From contig JAHFBP010000001.1 of the NCBI GenBank assembly GCA_023249975.1, forward strand, positions 1 to 55,029: 55,029 nt of DNA, written 5' to 3'. The notes beneath the pieces were generated by a model, which saw only the letters and a list, made by a program, of their open reading frames with translations, searched no databases and was not told the origin of the DNA. A program made the position numbers and the translations under genes. Shown here piece after piece: positions 9,693-49,420 of the stretch. Positions within the stretch are counted from its first letter, which is position 1, and each line of letters starts with the position of its first letter. The stretch is from a bacterium (GTDB taxonomy: Bacteria; Babelota; Babeliae; Babelales; GCA-2401785).

Positions 9693-9749
9693 CACCCCGC
9701 ACGCCCTGAGTGTTTTGTGAGTTTTAACGAACAAAATGTATCGAAGGGT
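9693..9749 (+). repeat. Dispersed hairpin repeat, copy 1 (inverted pair with copy 2)
   Basis: Starts CACCCCGCACGCCCTGAG, passes through TTTTGT...ACAAAA and ends TGTATCGAAGGGT. It faces copy 2 at 9786-9835. Together they could form one long hairpin in the ABC transporter transcript. The outer ends of both are GC-rich (CCCCGC.TGCCCTGAG) and the inner ends are CGAAGGG. Confidence 0.85.
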
Positions 9750-9785
9750 CTGAATTTGTAAGCCCCTAAGTGCACCTCAGTCGTT

Positions 9786-9835
9786 CACCCTTCGATACAT
9801 TTTTCTTACGAAAAACACTCAGGGCATGCGGGGTG
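9786..9835 (-). repeat. Dispersed hairpin repeat, copy 2
   Basis: Reverse orientation, CACCCTTCGATACA ... ACTCAGGGCATGCGGGGTG. Its inner stem is TTTTTC/GAAAAA rather than the TTTTGT/ACAAAA of copy 1, a compensatory change on both sides of the stem. Confidence 0.85.
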
Positions 9836-15019: not shown

Positions 15020-15362
15020 ATGTGTCCCTTTCGGGGTAAAAAGTCACCCTTCGATACATTTTGTTCGTAAAAACTCACAAAACACTCAGGGCATGCGGGG
15101 ATGGATACGCAAAAAGTTTAGCAATACGCAGAACATACGAAAATAACCATAGAATTGTGATCTTAAAAAGACCTCATGGGAAACCCAATGTTAGCCGAAA
15201 TGGCCATGTATTATTGGGTTATGGTGACAAGAGCTGTTTTCATTGGATTAAGCTCCTTTGCGATTTTAAAAATTAAACTTATGCAAAACATATCCAACAA
15301 ACTGAATACGTAATTTAAAGGTATCAAAGATTATGACTCTGTGCAACTGCTCCCTACAAAGC
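15020..15362. other. Non-coding stretch between the CPT-like operon and the pnp terminator
   Basis: Holds the dispersed repeat at 15045-15100. It also holds one small plus-strand frame (15176-15313, 45 codons, hydrophobic product starting MGNPMLAEMAMYYW). That frame has no good ribosome site and no relatives that I recognise, so I do not call it a gene. Nothing else is recognisable. Confidence 0.6.
15045..15100 (-). repeat. Dispersed hairpin repeat, copy 3
   Basis: Single copy, CACCCTTCGATACATTTTGT ... ACAAAACACTCAGGGCATGCGGGG. The inner stem is TTTTGT/ACAAAA with a 12-nt loop. It lies 26 bp upstream of the CPT-like start and would be in the 5' leader of that operon if the promoter is further out. 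Confidence 0.85.
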
Positions 15363-30594: not shown

Positions 30595-31071
30595 TTATTG
30601 TTCTAATTGATACCGAATTTCCCGCTGTTCATTGGTTTGATCGGTGTGTAAAAGCGAAACCGTAACCACCCGGTGTCGACAAGAAAAATCAGCCAAAAGA
30701 GGCATAATAACCCCCGGCCATTCAATAATTGAAATAGCCTCTTTATCGGCAAGATAGGCATCAAATCCCATATCAAAAAAATCTTCTATTTTATCAAGTC
30801 GATAGAGATCAAAGTGATAAACTTTACGATTCTGGCCATCAATGTATGTATTCATATACATATAAGTAGGGCTAATGACCTCATCTTTAATACCAACATG
30901 AGCACATAGCTGCTTGATTAAAGTAGTCTTTCCGGCCCCTAAAACCCCATGAAATACAAAAAGAGTGCCTGCCTTCCAAGAAGGCAGGAGTATTTCGGTG
31001 ACTATCTTACCAACTTGTTCAAGTGAAAAAAACCGGCTCTGCTCCAGAGGAGGTTGTTCCTGATGAGTCAT
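30595..31071 (-). CDS. tsaE: tRNA threonylcarbamoyladenosine biosynthesis ATPase TsaE
   Basis: A 158-residue TsaE (YjeE). The P-loop GVLGAGKTT is at residues 42-50, the switch region SPTYMYMNTY near 68-77, the HFDLYRL motif near 92-98 and a late IEWP. It works with TsaB and TsaD to make t6A37 on ANN-reading tRNAs. AGGAATTAC precedes the ATG at 31071. It follows the YacP-like gene by 7 bp on the same strand. All diagnostic motifs are present. Confidence 0.95.
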   Translation of the reverse strand: MTHQEQPPLEQSRFFSLEQVGKIVTEILLPSWKAGTLFVFHGVLGAGKTTLIKQLCAHVGIKDEVISPTYMYMNTYIDGQNRKVYHFDLYRLDKIEDFFDMGFDAYLADKEAISIIEWPGVIMPLLADFSCRHRVVTVSLLHTDQTNEQREIRYQLEQ

Positions 31072-31078
31072 GTAATTC

Positions 31079-31711
31079 CTATAATTTTTTAATTATTTTC
31101 AATGCTTGGCGATCTTTTTTTGATGCCTTTTGCCCACCCCGAGCATGCTCAACCTTGACTGGCTCACCCTTATCTGGAACTGACATACTTGCCTGTTCCA
31201 TGAGCAAATCTCTCAAAACATCTTCCTGTGACCGTTCAACATCATTATCTTGAACATTATACTTGATTAAACCAGAACCAAAAGTCTGATGAGCTTGAAC
31301 ATCCGACTCTGTTTGCACCGCAGCCTGAACAAAATTGTAAAAATCCTGGCTTCCCACAGCATCAGCCCCATTGCATGTAATGTCCCTAATAATCCCTAAA
31401 TCATCAGTTACCACAACGATGGAACCAGCCTTGTTTCGCGCAACATAATCGGCAATCCAATCATCGGCACTGGAAGCCTGTCCTGCATGCACAACCACAA
31501 TCCCCGCATGAACTTCGCGTTCGGCATGACGAAACATCCCCCCGTCAAACACCAGAATAATCTGAGTTATGGAAGGCCGCACCCGGCGATATTGCCCCAA
31601 TAAGCGAATAAAATATTCCTTGTGACGCTCAGACCGAGCCTTACCGTGACCATCAAAAACCCGTTTTACAACATTGTACCCATCAATAATCAGTATCACG
31701 AGAACCCCCAT
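31079..31711 (-). CDS. NYN/PIN-like ribonuclease domain protein (YacP/Rae1 type)
   Basis: A 210-residue protein. ILIIDGYNVVKRVF starts the NYN domain, followed by IILVFDGG (second acidic strand), SADDWIADYV and SIVVVTDDLGIIRD. These give the four Asp positions expected for the PIN/NYN metal site. Bacillus YacP (Rae1) cleaves mRNA at the ribosome. The C-terminal part (about 160-210) is a charged Lys/Gln-rich tail. The start is uncertain: ATG at 31711 or a GTG four codons downstream (after GGGGG) are both possible. It is probably co-transcribed with tsaE. Confidence 0.85.
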   Translation of the reverse strand: MGVLVILIIDGYNVVKRVFDGHGKARSERHKEYFIRLLGQYRRVRPSITQIILVFDGGMFRHAEREVHAGIVVVHAGQASSADDWIADYVARNKAGSIVVVTDDLGIIRDITCNGADAVGSQDFYNFVQAAVQTESDVQAHQTFGSGLIKYNVQDNDVERSQEDVLRDLLMEQASMSVPDKGEPVKVEHARGGQKASKKDRQALKIIKKL

Positions 31712-31752
31712 CACTCTTCATGGCATTTATTTTAACCCCCATTTAAATATTA

Positions 31753-31800
31753 CACCCTTCGATACATTTTGTTCCACAAAACACTCAGGGAATGCGGGGT
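31753..31800 (-). repeat. Dispersed hairpin repeat, copy 4
   Basis: CACCCTTCGATACATTTTGT, a 3-nt loop (TCC), then ACAAAACACTCAGGGAATGCGGGG. This is the shortest loop among the copies, making the hairpin especially clear. It is inverted relative to copy 5, 110 bp away. Confidence 0.85.
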
Positions 31801-31910
31801 TTGAACATACGTAACCCTTACAAAAACATTTCGCACACCCAGAGGCCTATCCAAATGGATTGCCAAAATTTCAAGTTTTGCATACGATAATTTTATACAA
31901 TAATCACCCT

Positions 31911-31958
31911 CACTCCGCATGCCCTGAGTGTTTTGTGAAACAAAATGTATCGAAGGGT
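31911..31958 (+). repeat. Dispersed hairpin repeat, copy 5
   Basis: CACTCCGCATGCCCTGAGTG, TTTTGT-GAA-ACAAAA, TGTATCGAAGGGT. The terminal GAAGGG ends 11 nt before the ATG of the atpG-like gene and may serve as its ribosome site. Confidence 0.85.
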
Positions 31959-31968
31959 ATACTTCATC

Positions 31969-32865
31969 ATGCTGCAACTTCTTAAAATCAGAAATAAGAT
32001 CAAATCTGTTCGCACGATTCATCGCATTACCGAAACTATGCGCCTTGCCTCAATGTCAATTTACACGCGCCTTGAGCGGGAATATTTTGGACATTTTGGA
32101 TTTCAAGACTACCTTCGGTCTATTCTCATTCACCTAAAACAAGCAAAAGCCTCTGAATTTTCTGAAAAGAAAATGGAAAAAAAGCGAAAACTTATCATTA
32201 TTGCTTCTGCCTCAAAAGGTCTTTGTGGAACCTATCACGAGGCACTGTGTACGTTTTTGGATGGCGCACTTGAAAAAAAAAGTGACATCTTTGATTACGA
32301 TTTTATAACTTTTGGCATCTATGCCCATCAATATGCCGACAAAGCTCTTTTATTAAGCAATGACAATCACCTTATTGCGGCACATGATGATTTTAGCACA
32401 ACACACCTCAAGTCGTCTTGTGAATGGCTTTTTAATTTTTTATTCTCTGAAGGCGAAATTTACGAGCACGTTGAATTTTTCAGCAACCGATCAATGAGTT
32501 TTTTCAATCACCGGCCGACACAATCGACCATCAAACCTTTTGACAGCATCTTTACCGAAAGAGAAACTATCCGCTCTGATCATAAAGAACGCATAGAGCA
32601 CACATCTCCAACTCCCGATGATTTTTATATCTATGAACAAAATCGCGAAACAATTTACACGTCACTGTTTCATCAATATTTATATAATCACATTTATGGC
32701 CTCCTGCTCGAAGTTCAAATGACCGAGCAGGCTGCGCGATTTCTTTCCATGGAACGTGCAACGAAAAATGCCGAAGGATTACTCAAAGAGCTTATTTTAC
32801 AACGCAATAAAGTCAGACAAGCCTCAATTACGCGAGAAGTCTCTGAGTTGATTGCGGGTATGTAA
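31969..32865 (+). CDS. atpG: Divergent, stand-alone ATP synthase gamma-subunit-like protein
   Basis: A 298-residue protein with both ends diagnostic for F1 gamma. The N-terminal helix has IRNKIKSVRTIHRITETMRLAS, then a Rossmann-like strand LIIIASASKGLCGTYH (equivalent of the SDRGLCG motif). The C-terminal helix is EQAARFLSMERATKNAEGLLKEL, followed by RQASITREVSEL. The middle (about 120-220) is unlike standard gamma. No other atp gene lies nearby; the neighbours are a YacP-like gene and murA. The ATG at 31969 is chosen because upstream codons belong to the dispersed repeat. It is either the real gamma subunit relocated away from its operon or a second paralogue. Confidence 0.8.
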   Translation: MLQLLKIRNKIKSVRTIHRITETMRLASMSIYTRLEREYFGHFGFQDYLRSILIHLKQAKASEFSEKKMEKKRKLIIIASASKGLCGTYHEALCTFLDGALEKKSDIFDYDFITFGIYAHQYADKALLLSNDNHLIAAHDDFSTTHLKSSCEWLFNFLFSEGEIYEHVEFFSNRSMSFFNHRPTQSTIKPFDSIFTERETIRSDHKERIEHTSPTPDDFYIYEQNRETIYTSLFHQYLYNHIYGLLLEVQMTEQAARFLSMERATKNAEGLLKELILQRNKVRQASITREVSELIAGM

Positions 32866-42944: not shown

Positions 42945-42993
42945 CACCCCGCATGCCCTGAGTGTTTTTCGTAGAAAAATGTATCGAAGGGTG
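42945..42993 (+). repeat. Dispersed hairpin repeat, copy 6
   Basis: CACCCCGCATGCCCTGAGTG, inner stem TTTTTC-GTA-GAAAAA (the alternative, covarying pair), TGTATCGAAGGGTG. It is part of an inverted pair with copy 7. The flanking bases ATTCACCTA are also mirrored, so the paired arms extend past the repeat. Confidence 0.88.
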
Positions 42994-43028
42994 TACAAGA
43001 AAATTACTCTTAAGGGCTTACAATAGCG

Positions 43029-43087
43029 ACCCTTCGATACATTTTGTTCGTCCGGAAGCTCACAAAACACTCAGGGCATGCGGGGTG
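43029..43087 (-). repeat. Dispersed hairpin repeat, copy 7
   Basis: ACCCTTCGATACATTTTGT, loop TCGTCCGGAAGCTC, ACAAAACACTCAGGGCATGCGGGGTG. It faces copy 6 across 35 bp; the whole pair spans 42945-43087. Confidence 0.88.
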
Positions 43088-44137: not shown

Positions 44138-47100
44138 ATGAAAATCAAAATCTTGTACGCCGGTCTGTTTGCAGGATTATTGGTTATTGGACAAAAGGAA
44201 GCTTGTTATTCAGGCTCAGCCCCCACGAAACCCATCGTACCGAAACTTGATGTATTAAGGGCTGTTCGGGATCTAGACTCTCAACAGAACACTCCTTCCT
44301 TATCTGACGGAAGCAGTACCGCGACGTCCACAACGACATCTGACACTGCACGTTCATCTGAAAGTTTCGACTCCAGTCTAGGTACTCTCCGCTCTCCGCG
44401 TGACTCAGAAGGAGCCGCAACCTCACCCCTCTCATCGCTAAGAGAATCTATTGACTCAGAAAACATCAGCACCTTTCGCAGCAATACATCAGCCGATGCA
44501 ACACCTGCCGGAACCCCAAGATCTGATGGCTCCACTGAAGAGCAATCTGTTGTTGCTGAAGCTGTGCAAGCCCCTGCTAAAAAGACGAGTTTTAGTCTTT
44601 TTTCTAAAAAAGCCCCACCCTCTGTGCTGAAGCTTGCTCAAAATGAAGTCGCTGCTGCAAAAGAAAACATTGCGAAATTAAAAAAAAATTTAGACAAGCC
44701 TGAGAATCGAACGAAATTTGCAGGGGCTATTGAGACACTTAATGCTGCAAATGCAAAACTCCGTACAGTTAATCCTTTAGAGACTGTGGATACTAACATC
44801 ACACCAAAAAAACCGATGCTTGGGGAAGCGCCTGCTCCTTTTGATCCAAATACAGTGCTCAAAGCGGCCTTTGCCGAAGCTGTTACCAAAGCAGAAAAGG
44901 CAAATGATGTAACCACAATCAATGCTCAATTGTTGGAACTACAAACTGAAGCTGCGGCTCATGCTCAAATAATTCCCGATTTTAAGCCTGATCGTAAACC
45001 TGATGAGGTAATTGCTGCCAATGCTGCCATTGATGAGGGCCGCAAAAAACTTGAGTCATCACAAAATGAAGTTAACGCTGCCAGAGATGCCTATAATGCT
45101 GATCCCAAAGGTAATGATGGCACAGATTCAAGCAAAACAAAAAAGGATGTTTTAGAAGAAAAAGTTGCGACTCTCGAACAAGAACAAGCAAAATTCAGAG
45201 AAGCCCTTGCGGATAACAAAGCCAAAGCTTCGGCCAGTGTTCACCTTCAAGGATTTGAGAAATTAACATCTTCAGAAAAACAATTTACAGCAAATCGAGC
45301 TATTCAAGCCAAATTAGATGTTGTTCATGATGCCAAAAAAGCTGTTGAGACGAAAAAAGCTGACTTAAGTGACGCTAATAAACGAAAGGCTCTTGTTGAT
45401 GCCCAAAACAACCACACCAAAGTCCTTGCAGATTTCAAGGCTGAACTGGAAAAAACCGAAAACTCCGCTGCCTCTGATGCCCTCATAAAACACAAGACTG
45501 AAGACCTAAAAAAATCCACCGAAGCTGCACTAAACAATGCTTTTAAAGCTGAATTAGAAAAACCTGGCGCTGACCACAACGCATTAAAAGCTGAAGCTAC
45601 AAATTATGCTGATATTGATCTGGGCGAAACCACCAAAAAATTGGACGCCAATATAACAATCAAGAAGGCGCAAGAATCATTTGAAGCCGCGAAAGTGACT
45701 TTTGAAGCCGCAATAGCTGGCAACAATGCTAATCCAGCAGATAAAGCAGCAAGAGCGACATTTGACAAAGCAATCAAAACGTTTGAGGAGCAAAAAACTT
45801 TATTGAATAAAGCAATATCTGAAAACGCGCAAACTGCAACTGAAGCTACAAAAAAGACTGCAACTGATGCCATAACAGCGGCCACAACAGATACCGCTAA
45901 AAACACACTCAAAGCTGCCCTTGATACTGCAATTGAAGCCGAAAATTCCGGTAACGGTGAAAAATTACCGGAATTACTGGAAGAAGCCAAAGGTCTTACC
46001 AGCCTTGACCAATCTATGAAAACAGGCCTGACTTCAAGGATTGAAAAAAACATTGCCGACAACAAAGGTGTCAGCGAAGCCAAAGCCGCTTTTGATGCAG
46101 CAAATTCAGAACTTGATGAGGCCCAGAAAAAATTAAATGACGAAACGGATCCGACAAAAAAGGCTGCTGTACGAAAAAATTTAGATGAAAAAATAAATAC
46201 TCTGACTCAAAAACATAATGCTTTGGCTGAGATCTCTAAAAAATTCCCTGATGCCAGCGACGGCGTAAAAGCCACAGTCCAAAACCTCGCAGATGTTACT
46301 CAAAAAACAACTGAAGCCTCAACGGTCCTGGAAAGATCACTTAAAACAGAAATAGTGGCCATAACAGTCAACTCTCCAGATGATATCAAAAAACTCCAAG
46401 CATTGGTTACTGAGGCTAACACACTCGGCAATATTCAAGACAAAGGCTCGATTAAAACTACTGCGGATATCGAGGGAAAAACAAAAGCTCTTGTTGACCC
46501 CGCAACAAAAGCTGTTACTGAAGCAAAAACGGCATTTGATGGTGCCAAAAAAGCCCTAGATGCAAATACAAATGATCAGAGTCTCAAGGACAGCTATAAT
46601 ACGGCTGCCTCAAAATTTCATGAAGCCACCATGGTCCTCAAAGCCATTAAAGATGCTGGAATAACTCATGCTGATATCGAAAAAACATTGACCACTGCCG
46701 GCGAAAATGCCGCATTGCCCGAAGCGACCATGGCCCACACCACTGCAGCCTCTGAAAAAGCTCTTACTGATGCAAATGAAAAGCAACGTTTGGCCACCAA
46801 GGCACAAAACAAAGTTGAAGAGCTCAAGCGAACATCTGCTGAACTCACCACGAAAAAACCAGAATTGGAAAAAAAGAAAGCTGCTGCTGAAAAAACTGCA
46901 ACTGAGCTGGAAAAAAGCATTGATGCGCTCACTGCGCTAAAAAGTAATGCCACCAATGATGCTGTAAAAAACAGTATTGAAGCCCTCATTCAAACTCGAA
47001 CAAAAGAAAAAGACGCGGCCACCGAGGAAGCCAGCAGACTTGGTGAAGAAACAGGGAGCAATAATGATGCCTTAACCCAAAACAAATCGGATCTCGAATC

Positions 47101-49420
47101 CGCTGAACAAGAAGCCCTCGCAACCAAAGCTGCTGCCGATGAGGCCACAGGCAAACTGCCCGATGCCAATAAATGGGCAAAAGAAGCACAAGCTACCCAT
47201 GCAATTGCCCGTGCCGAAGCTGAACTTGCAGGCGAGATTAGAACTCTCACCACCAAAAAAACTGAACACACCGCAACCGTTACAAGACTGCAAGGTGAAG
47301 CGAGCCTAGCGCAAAAAAACTTGGATGACCTGAAAAAGGCTGCTGCTCTCGATCCAAACCTTGCAAAATCGCTTGAAGAAGCTCTCAGGCTCGCAGAAAA
47401 AGCTGTTACTGATAAACAAAGTGAATTCAGTTCGGCTAAAACAGAGCTCGAAAAAACAGCCAACAGTCTGGTCCAGAAACAAAACTCTCAAGCAGCTGCC
47501 GCTGCCCAAAAACCTCTCAAGGAAAACGAAATCGCTCTTGCCGCAGCCCAAGCCCTGCCTGCTGTCCGCACGAGTACCGCGGCAATCGTTCAAGATGCCG
47601 TTAAAAATGCCCATGAAAAAACATTAAATGAGATCCACACAGGAAAAGATGTCACCGAGGCATCTATTGCAATGAATATTGAAAAACAAGCCGCTGAAGT
47701 GGTCAATCTCGAGGCCAAAAGAATAAGTCAGGAAAGTACCCGTGATGCTGCCAATGCAGCCGCCCTTGCCGAACTGAAACAACTCGACGCTAAAGCAACA
47801 GAACTGAGCGATGCCAAAAAAGCCGCCATCAAAACCAACCTTGAGATTAAAGCAAAAGCTGTGAATGATGCGCGTAACGCCCTCACCTTCCCTTCTGACA
47901 TAAAGGGATTTGACCTTGAAAAAGCACAAAAAAACATTCAAGCCGCTGAGGCTGAATTGGCCAAATGGACCAAGGTACAAGAACTGGTTGATGTCGCGGA
48001 AAAAGCACAAACTAATTTAGACCAGGCTGAAAAAGAAAAAACCGTCGCAGAAAATGAAAAAAATCTTTTAGATGCTAAAGACGCCTATCTTAAGGCACCT
48101 GTTGGTAGCAAAACAAAAGAACTTACCGATGCCATCAGAGCGGCTGAAAAAAAGGTTGCCGAGTCAAAAATAGTAGCTGGCCATAGTGATGATGACAAGT
48201 TACGCCTTGCGGGAGCCCTGGACCCGAAAGAAGCTGATAAAAAGAAGACGGACCTTAAAAAGAAGGTCGATAACCTTGCAGATCTCGTAAAAACTCATCA
48301 AAAAACTTTTGATAGCCTTAAAAAGCAAACAGATTCTGCAACGCGCGGGGGGCTACTGAGTGCGAACGGCACAATATATGCCACTGCACGACTTGAGCAG
48401 TTACAAAAAACTATTAATGACGCCACAGTGCAAAGAGATGCGGCCAAAACCACTTTTGATACTCAGACTCAATTGATCAAAGATATCAAAGCAGGCAAGG
48501 ATCTTCTTAAAAATGAGGCGGATCAACAGAAAAAAGAATTAGAGACAAAAAACAAAGAGTTAATTACTACGGCCAAGACAGACGTTGAAACCCAAACTCA
48601 GGCACTCAAGGACGCACAAAAAACATTGGCTGAATCAAATAAAGAGCTGACTCAAAAGAAACAAGATGCTGCTAAAGCTCAAGCCGATGTCAGAAAATAT
48701 GAAGGAAAAACTTCAATAAAAGTTGGTGCTATTCTGGGAATTGGTGGAAAAACAATAGACTTCACGATAGCACAAGATATTGTAGCAAACCAACTTAACA
48801 CCGCACCACAACGTGAAATTGATGCTGCTCGAAAAATTATATCTGATCACGCAGTCCTTGTTGAAAAACAAAATACTGCTGATGCTACAGCTGCTGAAAC
48901 TCTCAAAAAGGTTGTTGCCGAAACCAAAGCTGCATCCCAAGCCACTGCAACGTTGGAAGCCGCTAAACGCACACTCAACACCACCCTCTCCGAAGTTGGC
49001 TCTGATTCAGAGAAAAAAGCTGCCAGAATTGAGATGGCAAAACAAGATGCCATCATTAAAATAGCTGTGGAAAAAACAGCCCCCAAAGCTGAAAACATTG
49101 GACTCTTGGCAAAAGCAAAAGCTTTCTTGGCTCTGAAAACCACGGATTCAAAAGCCGCGATTTCTGCTCATAAAGAAGAAAATAGTTCAGCAAAAATGAC
49201 CCTTTCTGAAAAAGTTGAATTCCTAGCTCAGAAAAAAGCTCGCGAAAAAACAGCCGAAAACACAGCGATCAAAGATACTAAGCGAGCTATTTCCAAAGAA
49301 AAAGCCGAGAAAAAGAAAGCTCAGGATGCTGCTTGGAAGGCAAAAGGCGAACTTTCTCTGCCCGATAAATTTAAGAAAAATATTCTTCGTCGTGAGGCCA
49401 CGCCTGGCCACAGTAAATAA
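44138..49420 (+). CDS. Giant exported Ala/Lys-rich coiled-coil protein (1760 residues)
   Basis: Signal peptide about 1-26 (ending ACYSG). A Ser/Thr/Asp-rich disordered region (about 45-135) contains repeated S-L-R/S-P-R/D-S phrases. From about residue 150 to about 1700 the sequence is almost continuous Ala/Lys/Glu/Asp/Thr helix with many A-x-x-A-x-K heptad-like runs, predicted coiled coil. Near 1525-1555 a short non-helical patch (KVGAILGIGGKTIDFTIA) breaks the pattern. The tail (about 1690-1760) is strongly basic. GAGGGGAATCC precedes the ATG. Codon positions are undisturbed over 5.3 kb, so it is a maintained gene. A surface filament, adhesin or host-acting effector are options; the function is unknown. 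Confidence 0.85.
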   Translation: MKIKILYAGLFAGLLVIGQKEACYSGSAPTKPIVPKLDVLRAVRDLDSQQNTPSLSDGSSTATSTTTSDTARSSESFDSSLGTLRSPRDSEGAATSPLSSLRESIDSENISTFRSNTSADATPAGTPRSDGSTEEQSVVAEAVQAPAKKTSFSLFSKKAPPSVLKLAQNEVAAAKENIAKLKKNLDKPENRTKFAGAIETLNAANAKLRTVNPLETVDTNITPKKPMLGEAPAPFDPNTVLKAAFAEAVTKAEKANDVTTINAQLLELQTEAAAHAQIIPDFKPDRKPDEVIAANAAIDEGRKKLESSQNEVNAARDAYNADPKGNDGTDSSKTKKDVLEEKVATLEQEQAKFREALADNKAKASASVHLQGFEKLTSSEKQFTANRAIQAKLDVVHDAKKAVETKKADLSDANKRKALVDAQNNHTKVLADFKAELEKTENSAASDALIKHKTEDLKKSTEAALNNAFKAELEKPGADHNALKAEATNYADIDLGETTKKLDANITIKKAQESFEAAKVTFEAAIAGNNANPADKAARATFDKAIKTFEEQKTLLNKAISENAQTATEATKKTATDAITAATTDTAKNTLKAALDTAIEAENSGNGEKLPELLEEAKGLTSLDQSMKTGLTSRIEKNIADNKGVSEAKAAFDAANSELDEAQKKLNDETDPTKKAAVRKNLDEKINTLTQKHNALAEISKKFPDASDGVKATVQNLADVTQKTTEASTVLERSLKTEIVAITVNSPDDIKKLQALVTEANTLGNIQDKGSIKTTADIEGKTKALVDPATKAVTEAKTAFDGAKKALDANTNDQSLKDSYNTAASKFHEATMVLKAIKDAGITHADIEKTLTTAGENAALPEATMAHTTAASEKALTDANEKQRLATKAQNKVEELKRTSAELTTKKPELEKKKAAAEKTATELEKSIDALTALKSNATNDAVKNSIEALIQTRTKEKDAATEEASRLGEETGSNNDALTQNKSDLESAEQEALATKAAADEATGKLPDANKWAKEAQATHAIARAEAELAGEIRTLTTKKTEHTATVTRLQGEASLAQKNLDDLKKAAALDPNLAKSLEEALRLAEKAVTDKQSEFSSAKTELEKTANSLVQKQNSQAAAAAQKPLKENEIALAAAQALPAVRTSTAAIVQDAVKNAHEKTLNEIHTGKDVTEASIAMNIEKQAAEVVNLEAKRISQESTRDAANAAALAELKQLDAKATELSDAKKAAIKTNLEIKAKAVNDARNALTFPSDIKGFDLEKAQKNIQAAEAELAKWTKVQELVDVAEKAQTNLDQAEKEKTVAENEKNLLDAKDAYLKAPVGSKTKELTDAIRAAEKKVAESKIVAGHSDDDKLRLAGALDPKEADKKKTDLKKKVDNLADLVKTHQKTFDSLKKQTDSATRGGLLSANGTIYATARLEQLQKTINDATVQRDAAKTTFDTQTQLIKDIKAGKDLLKNEADQQKKELETKNKELITTAKTDVETQTQALKDAQKTLAESNKELTQKKQDAAKAQADVRKYEGKTSIKVGAILGIGGKTIDFTIAQDIVANQLNTAPQREIDAARKIISDHAVLVEKQNTADATAAETLKKVVAETKAASQATATLEAAKRTLNTTLSEVGSDSEKKAARIEMAKQDAIIKIAVEKTAPKAENIGLLAKAKAFLALKTTDSKAAISAHKEENSSAKMTLSEKVEFLAQKKAREKTAENTAIKDTKRAISKEKAEKKKAQDAAWKAKGELSLPDKFKKNILRREATPGHSK

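Follow-up and report, generated by a model that had tools for sequence, protein, structure and literature searches.

The window (the whole 55,029-nucleotide stretch of DNA that was analysed) carries on its forward strand a gene that, judged by its sequence, encodes a full-length F1 gamma subunit. The genes and features at this locus are:

30595–31071, minus strand: tsaE (PF02367, 105.2 bits), second gene of a conserved divergent pair
31079–31714, minus strand: YacP-like NYN-domain gene (PF05991, 62.9 bits), the divergent neighbour of gamma
31751–31800, minus strand: first arm of an inverted pair formed by a dispersed REP-like repeat, between the NYN gene and gamma
31912–31961, plus strand: second arm of this pair, ending 7 nt before the gamma ATG
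31952–31957, plus strand: GAAGGG, inside the repeat; a possible but weak, poorly spaced ribosome site
31969–32865, plus strand: F1 gamma subunit gene (atpG), 298 amino acids, the sole copy detected in the genome
32867–34207, minus strand: murA-like gene (EPSP synthase family; PF00275, 288 bits), convergent with gamma

Elsewhere in the window, a very long frame of 1760 amino acids is found at 44138–49420 on the plus strand.

The gamma frame is uninterrupted, from the ATG at 31969 to a stop at 32865. An in-frame ATG further upstream (31945) would give a longer product; in the alignment, the start at 31969 coincides with a methionine column in 80 of 85 relatives. The gamma profile PF00231 matches residues 4–298 in a single stretch (162.6 bits, cut-off 39.9), so that the middle of the protein is also aligned. 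Against the NCBIfam equivalog TIGR01146, the score is 154 bits, below the cut-off of 194.45, which is a naming threshold and not a biological feature; the label “divergent” given in the initial annotation is therefore fair. A search of PDB sequences returned 46 distinct matches at an E-value of 0.001 or better, and those with a name are gamma subunits. A search of genome contigs gave a single distant named relative, Adhaeribacter. An AlphaFold model obtained from a two-row alignment is poor (mean pLDDT 42.4); it places helices at residues 14–64, 226–249 and 254–296, and alternating strands and helices between residues 72 and 172.

Identity to the E. coli gamma is 24%. The gene had initially been described as keeping both diagnostic ends of gamma, with an atypical middle third. 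The first part of this description is borne out: median identity to relatives is 28.0% for the N-terminal part and 39.8% for the C-terminal part, against 23.0% for the middle (residues 76–215), and four coupling residues are retained. The second part holds only in so far as the middle is the least similar region, since PF00231 still aligns throughout. When three other phylum members were compared with the rest, the three parts ranked in the same way, with the middle again the least similar, indicating that this is a general trait of the gammas in the phylum. Within a panel of 21 genomes, consisting of 20 chosen relatives and the source genome (with G014 replacing G023 at the beta locus), the gamma of the source genome is the most divergent, with a median identity of 29.1% to the panel, compared to a panel median of 34.7%. 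Its beta is also the most divergent of the 21, pointing to rapid change common to gamma and its partner.

At twelve alignment positions, all 85 relatives have the same residue; the gamma studied here is identical at 11 of these, with a lysine to arginine change at the twelfth. R242, Q269, T273 and E275 of gamma (E. coli numbering) are identical in the source and in the gammas of all 20 panel relatives; also kept are K155, E181, R182 and R246 of beta, R376 of alpha, R210 of a, and the glutamate of c (one panel alpha is gapped). In E. coli, these gamma residues serve coupling, and those of alpha and beta are catalytic. In 15 congeneric pairs of relatives, the source genome having no congener in the set, dN is lower than dS for gamma in every case, with a ratio of 0.03–0.26 in the 11 pairs for which dS is computable and with dS near saturation in most pairs. 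Gamma is under purifying selection in these relatives.

The two 50-nt repeat arms upstream of gamma are 92% complementary. Their 18-nt core, ACAAAATGTATCGAAGGG, occurs in 47 copies in the genome at two mismatches or fewer, often as inverted pairs, compared to none for the reversed control; in the window, the repeat is found at 9731–9805, 15047–15064, 31755–31957 and 42974–43047. I call it REP-like because of its resemblance to such elements. The gap between the NYN gene and gamma is 254 bp with the chosen starts, or 230 bp with mechanical starts, for which the median of 77 loci is 113 bp, and the repeat pair was therefore probably inserted into a pre-existing divergent promoter region. The dispersed repeat noted at the outset is thus real, but GAAGGG ends 11 nt before the ATG, rather than 10. 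As a ribosome site it is weak: the only 4-nt Shine-Dalgarno match before gamma is AAGG, starting 16 nt upstream of the ATG. Across the phylum, 56 of 81 gamma genes possess a 4-nt match at −20 to −5, compared to 187 of 1720 random positions, so the signal is in use in the phylum, although the AAGG of this gamma is poorly spaced.

The source genome (1.09 Mb in 20 contigs, 92.8% complete) contains a single PF00231 match, gamma itself, located 32 kb inside a 159-kb contig. F1Fo family profiles identified no other atp gene in the window, so the gene does stand alone, as first described. The initial annotation had proposed that it could be the only gamma of a broken-up ATP synthase, a role that it tied to the presence of alpha and beta, and had called for a genome-wide search for atp genes and for a second atpG. 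That proposal is supported: alpha, beta, delta, epsilon, a and c are all present elsewhere in the same genome, while no second gamma was found in it. PF00006 matches alpha on contig 9, beta on contig 11, and more weakly a third protein on contig 17, outside the window, which I take to be Rho. Delta and c adjoin alpha, epsilon adjoins beta, and a is on contig 18. Two b-like frames sit between c and delta. They are named b and b' by position and by a look at their sequence only, as a search of the source genome with PF00430 did not recognise them; in the phylum, this profile matches in five of 101 genomes, three times between c and delta. The partners of gamma are therefore distributed over three places, namely c-b-b'-delta-alpha, beta-epsilon with a pair of ATP/ADP translocases after it, and a with a four-hairpin c-like protein (hereafter c4). 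A second gamma could still lie in an assembly gap, given the completeness and contig number above.

This arrangement is not specific to the source genome. I examined a phylum set of 101 genomes, spanning 77 genera of one order. PF00231 matches in 91 of these, a in 95, delta in 92, epsilon in 88, c in 100 and, among the matches listed, PF00006 in all 101. The gamma match is single in 89 of the 91 genomes; in the other two (G060 and G092), a short match at the C-terminus occurs in addition. According to a list picked by eye from the profile searches, 13 of the 91 genomes have gamma on one contig with some other atp match, and the spacing is then at least 27.9 kb. Each of the clusters c-b-b'-delta-alpha, beta-epsilon and a-c4 was recovered in all 21 panel genomes, although b' escaped detection in one. 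Placed one after another, the pieces a-c4, c-b-b'-delta-alpha, gamma and beta-epsilon reproduce the standard order, with c doubled. The atp split is common to the whole phylum, which the initial annotation had not foreseen. In the literature searched, mostly papers outside subscription, no report was found of gamma alone, of the atp split or of a four-hairpin c in this phylum (Dependentiae/Babelota), whose members are probably intracellular.

A few genomes depart from the pattern. PF00231 found no gamma in G006 (94% complete) or G031 (91% complete). G053 (94% complete) has gamma and a, but neither delta nor epsilon was found in it, and none of its PF00006 matches has an E-value below 1.1e-27. 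Both G053 and G089 (94–95% complete) have gamma and no convincing alpha or beta match, reflecting either assembly gaps or real loss. In G031, two PF00006 matches on contigs 7 and 15 have the same score of 276.6 bits, in frames of 504 and 387 amino acids, corresponding either to a duplicate alpha or to assembly redundancy.

The neighbourhood of gamma is also shared, which was likewise unforeseen in the initial annotation. The alignment and the locus comparison drew on 86 genomes, leaving out five of the 91 that PF00231 matches (G003, G013, G038, G039 and G084). An NYN/YacP gene lies divergently upstream in 77 of the 86 loci, tsaE is present in 68, and murA lies convergently downstream in 54; as many flanks are only ∼1 kb long, these counts are lower bounds. 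The nine loci without NYN comprise one with tsaE and murA (G032), three with murA only, and five with none of the three in the short flank. In the single-contig genomes G004, G024 and G097, NYN is upstream of gamma and the other atp matches are at least 27.9 kb away. The wide retention of the NYN-tsaE/murA context indicates that the arrangement predates the sampled families of the phylum, and is not a recent break. The gamma distance matrix correlates with those of the other subunits (r 0.52–0.76, 0 of 2000 permutations, 20 genomes); any set of genes passed on vertically should show such a correlation, and I do not take it as proof of contact.

The protein encoded directly after a, c4, is 319 amino acids long in the source genome (contig 18, L040:2990–3949) and contains four PF00137 stretches; the a-c4 pairing is present in 21 of 21 panel genomes. 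Among the matches listed, and counted by eye, 86 of the 101 genomes have five PF00137 matches, ten have four, four have one and one has none. Five is what a genome with a single c and a single four-hairpin protein should give. The ion-binding sites of the source c4 read D, E, S and G, so that two of four acids are lost and the outer helices do not all carry one. Over the 21 genomes, four acids are found in seven, three in eleven and two in three (source included). A hydropathy plot of the source c4 indicates many membrane segments, of which eight are not cleanly resolved. In the single-hairpin c, Gln32, Glu65 and Ser/Thr66 are kept in 20 of 21 genomes; the source c (contig 9, L036:11635–11934) has Met, Glu and Thr at these positions, Gln32 being replaced by Met. 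The set of Gln, Glu and Ser/Thr ligands is tied to sodium by Mulkidjanian et al. (PMC2359735). The conservation of c4 beside a suggests a mixed rotor ring.

Directly after epsilon in the source genome, and on the same strand, are the two TLC ATP/ADP translocases (PF03219, 81.7 and 64.1 bits; contig 11, L037:2690–5527), and translocases follow epsilon in six of the 21 panel genomes. The search for primary ion pumps covered NuoH (complex I) and COX1 (haem-copper oxidase); neither has a match in the source genome, and each matches in one of 101 genomes of the phylum. The NuoH match (G081, contig 29) is isolated and contains four TGA codons in frame; the COX1 match (G023, contig 10) is a 69-amino-acid piece at a contig edge; both are probably foreign, mitochondrial-like contamination of the bins. 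ATP import genes beside beta-epsilon, together with the lack of NuoH and COX1, make ATP hydrolysis charging the membrane the likely direction. ATP import combined with a reverse ATP synthase, i.e., ATP-driven pumping, is proposed for Chromulinavorax destructans in the relevant section of its description (Deeg et al., 2019, PMC6561590). Most likely, then, the main work of the enzyme is to pump ions at the expense of ATP imported from the host, its direction being inferred.

The reading that best accounts for these observations, to which I assign a probability of about 0.82, is that gamma provides the only central shaft in a complete F1Fo ATP synthase, whose ancestral operon had the usual order and was divided, early in the history of the phylum, between four stable places. 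The operon would have been cut into a + c4, c-b-b'-delta-alpha, gamma and beta-epsilon, leaving gamma alone and divergent from the NYN-tsaE pair. Because gamma is separately placed, the subunits must meet by assembly and not through a shared mRNA. The complex presumably assembles and rotates, with gamma coupling alpha3beta3 to a rotor of c and perhaps also c4, and would mainly hydrolyse host-derived ATP to charge the membrane.

The other option raised in the initial annotation, a repurposed paralogue no longer working in the ATP synthase, could be argued from the isolation of the gene, its low identity to the E. coli gamma and its score under the TIGR01146 cut-off. It is nonetheless highly improbable, as no other gamma was found although all of alpha, beta, delta, epsilon, a and c are there, the four coupling residues tested and the catalytic residues are all kept, and gamma occurs in 91 of 101 genomes, with a single match in 89. 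A draft of 20 contigs and a dispersed repeat directly upstream might suggest that a recent breakage or an assembly error removed gamma from a normal operon. Its position deep inside a 159-kb contig, and the same upstream neighbour in 77 of 86 loci, including the three single-contig genomes where gamma is far from other atp matches, leave this idea scarcely credible. Similarly, the fast divergence of gamma and beta in the source genome, and translocases that can supply ATP, would be compatible with gamma being a decaying relic in a lineage living on imported ATP; this is very doubtful in view of the intact frame, the match at 11 of 12 invariant columns with a K to R change at the twelfth, the intact alpha and beta catalytic residues, and the low dN/dS in relatives. 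I rejected all three.

The remaining alternative accepts a real complex but has it work chiefly in the forward direction, with ATP made at the expense of an ion gradient that neither complex I nor an oxidase generates. In its favour, no synthase subunit has been lost, and the pump search covered NuoH and COX1 only; I regard it as unlikely, since the source genome has no NuoH or COX1 match, two translocases directly follow epsilon, and reverse operation is proposed within the phylum in the section of PMC6561590 cited above.

Returning to the split, ATP-hydrolysing synthase, its features can be combined into a wider picture, possible but on the whole somewhat doubtful. Across the Dependentiae, gamma would turn a mixed ring, made of single-hairpin c and of a dedicated c4 encoded with a. 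With hairpins lacking the acid (two of four in the source genome), the ring would carry fewer ions per turn, allowing ATP hydrolysis to build a steeper gradient, and an F-type enzyme would have become a V-ATPase-like pump in an ATP-importing phylum. The four-place split might further allow F1, rotor and stator to be made at separate levels.

F1Fo gene order is highly conserved in bacteria, and this is often explained by a need for fixed subunit ratios. In an entire phylum, gamma permanently stands by itself and the remaining pieces keep the standard order, which shows that the complex can be maintained without a shared operon. Compared to the F1 gamma family (PF00231, TIGR01146), the protein described here is alike in its full-length match, conserved termini and coupling residues, and differs in being alone in the genome and below the TIGR01146 cut-off. 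Splitting of the atp operon is known in Alphaproteobacteria, Epsilonproteobacteria and others, as reported in the relevant parts of a survey of 2248 strains (Wang et al., 2017, PMC5709465). The split patterns named there keep gamma with alpha or beta. The standard gene order inside the pieces is common to those operons and to the present ones; however, here the cuts fall between alpha and gamma and between gamma and beta, c is doubled, and none of the combinations named in those parts has gamma alone. The reverse ATP synthase of C. destructans, with ATP import and ATP-driven pumping, is proposed for a member of the same phylum, and the portions of that account that concern it are silent on a gene split, on gamma and on a four-hairpin c-like protein (PMC6561590).

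If c4 is in the ring, these host-dependent bacteria would also offer a naturally occurring example of an ATP synthase that has been retuned for ATP-driven pumping. Acetobacterium woodii has a mixed c ring, and one made of c and c4 would be a new variant of this kind. The multi-hairpin c/K chains described in the pertinent part of Mulkidjanian et al. (2008, PMC2359735) have 2, 3 or 13 hairpins, with acids not kept in all. Like these, c4 has c-type hairpins duplicated in one chain, with acids lost in some; unlike them, it has four hairpins and is encoded beside an F-type a, with a separate single-hairpin c elsewhere in the genome.
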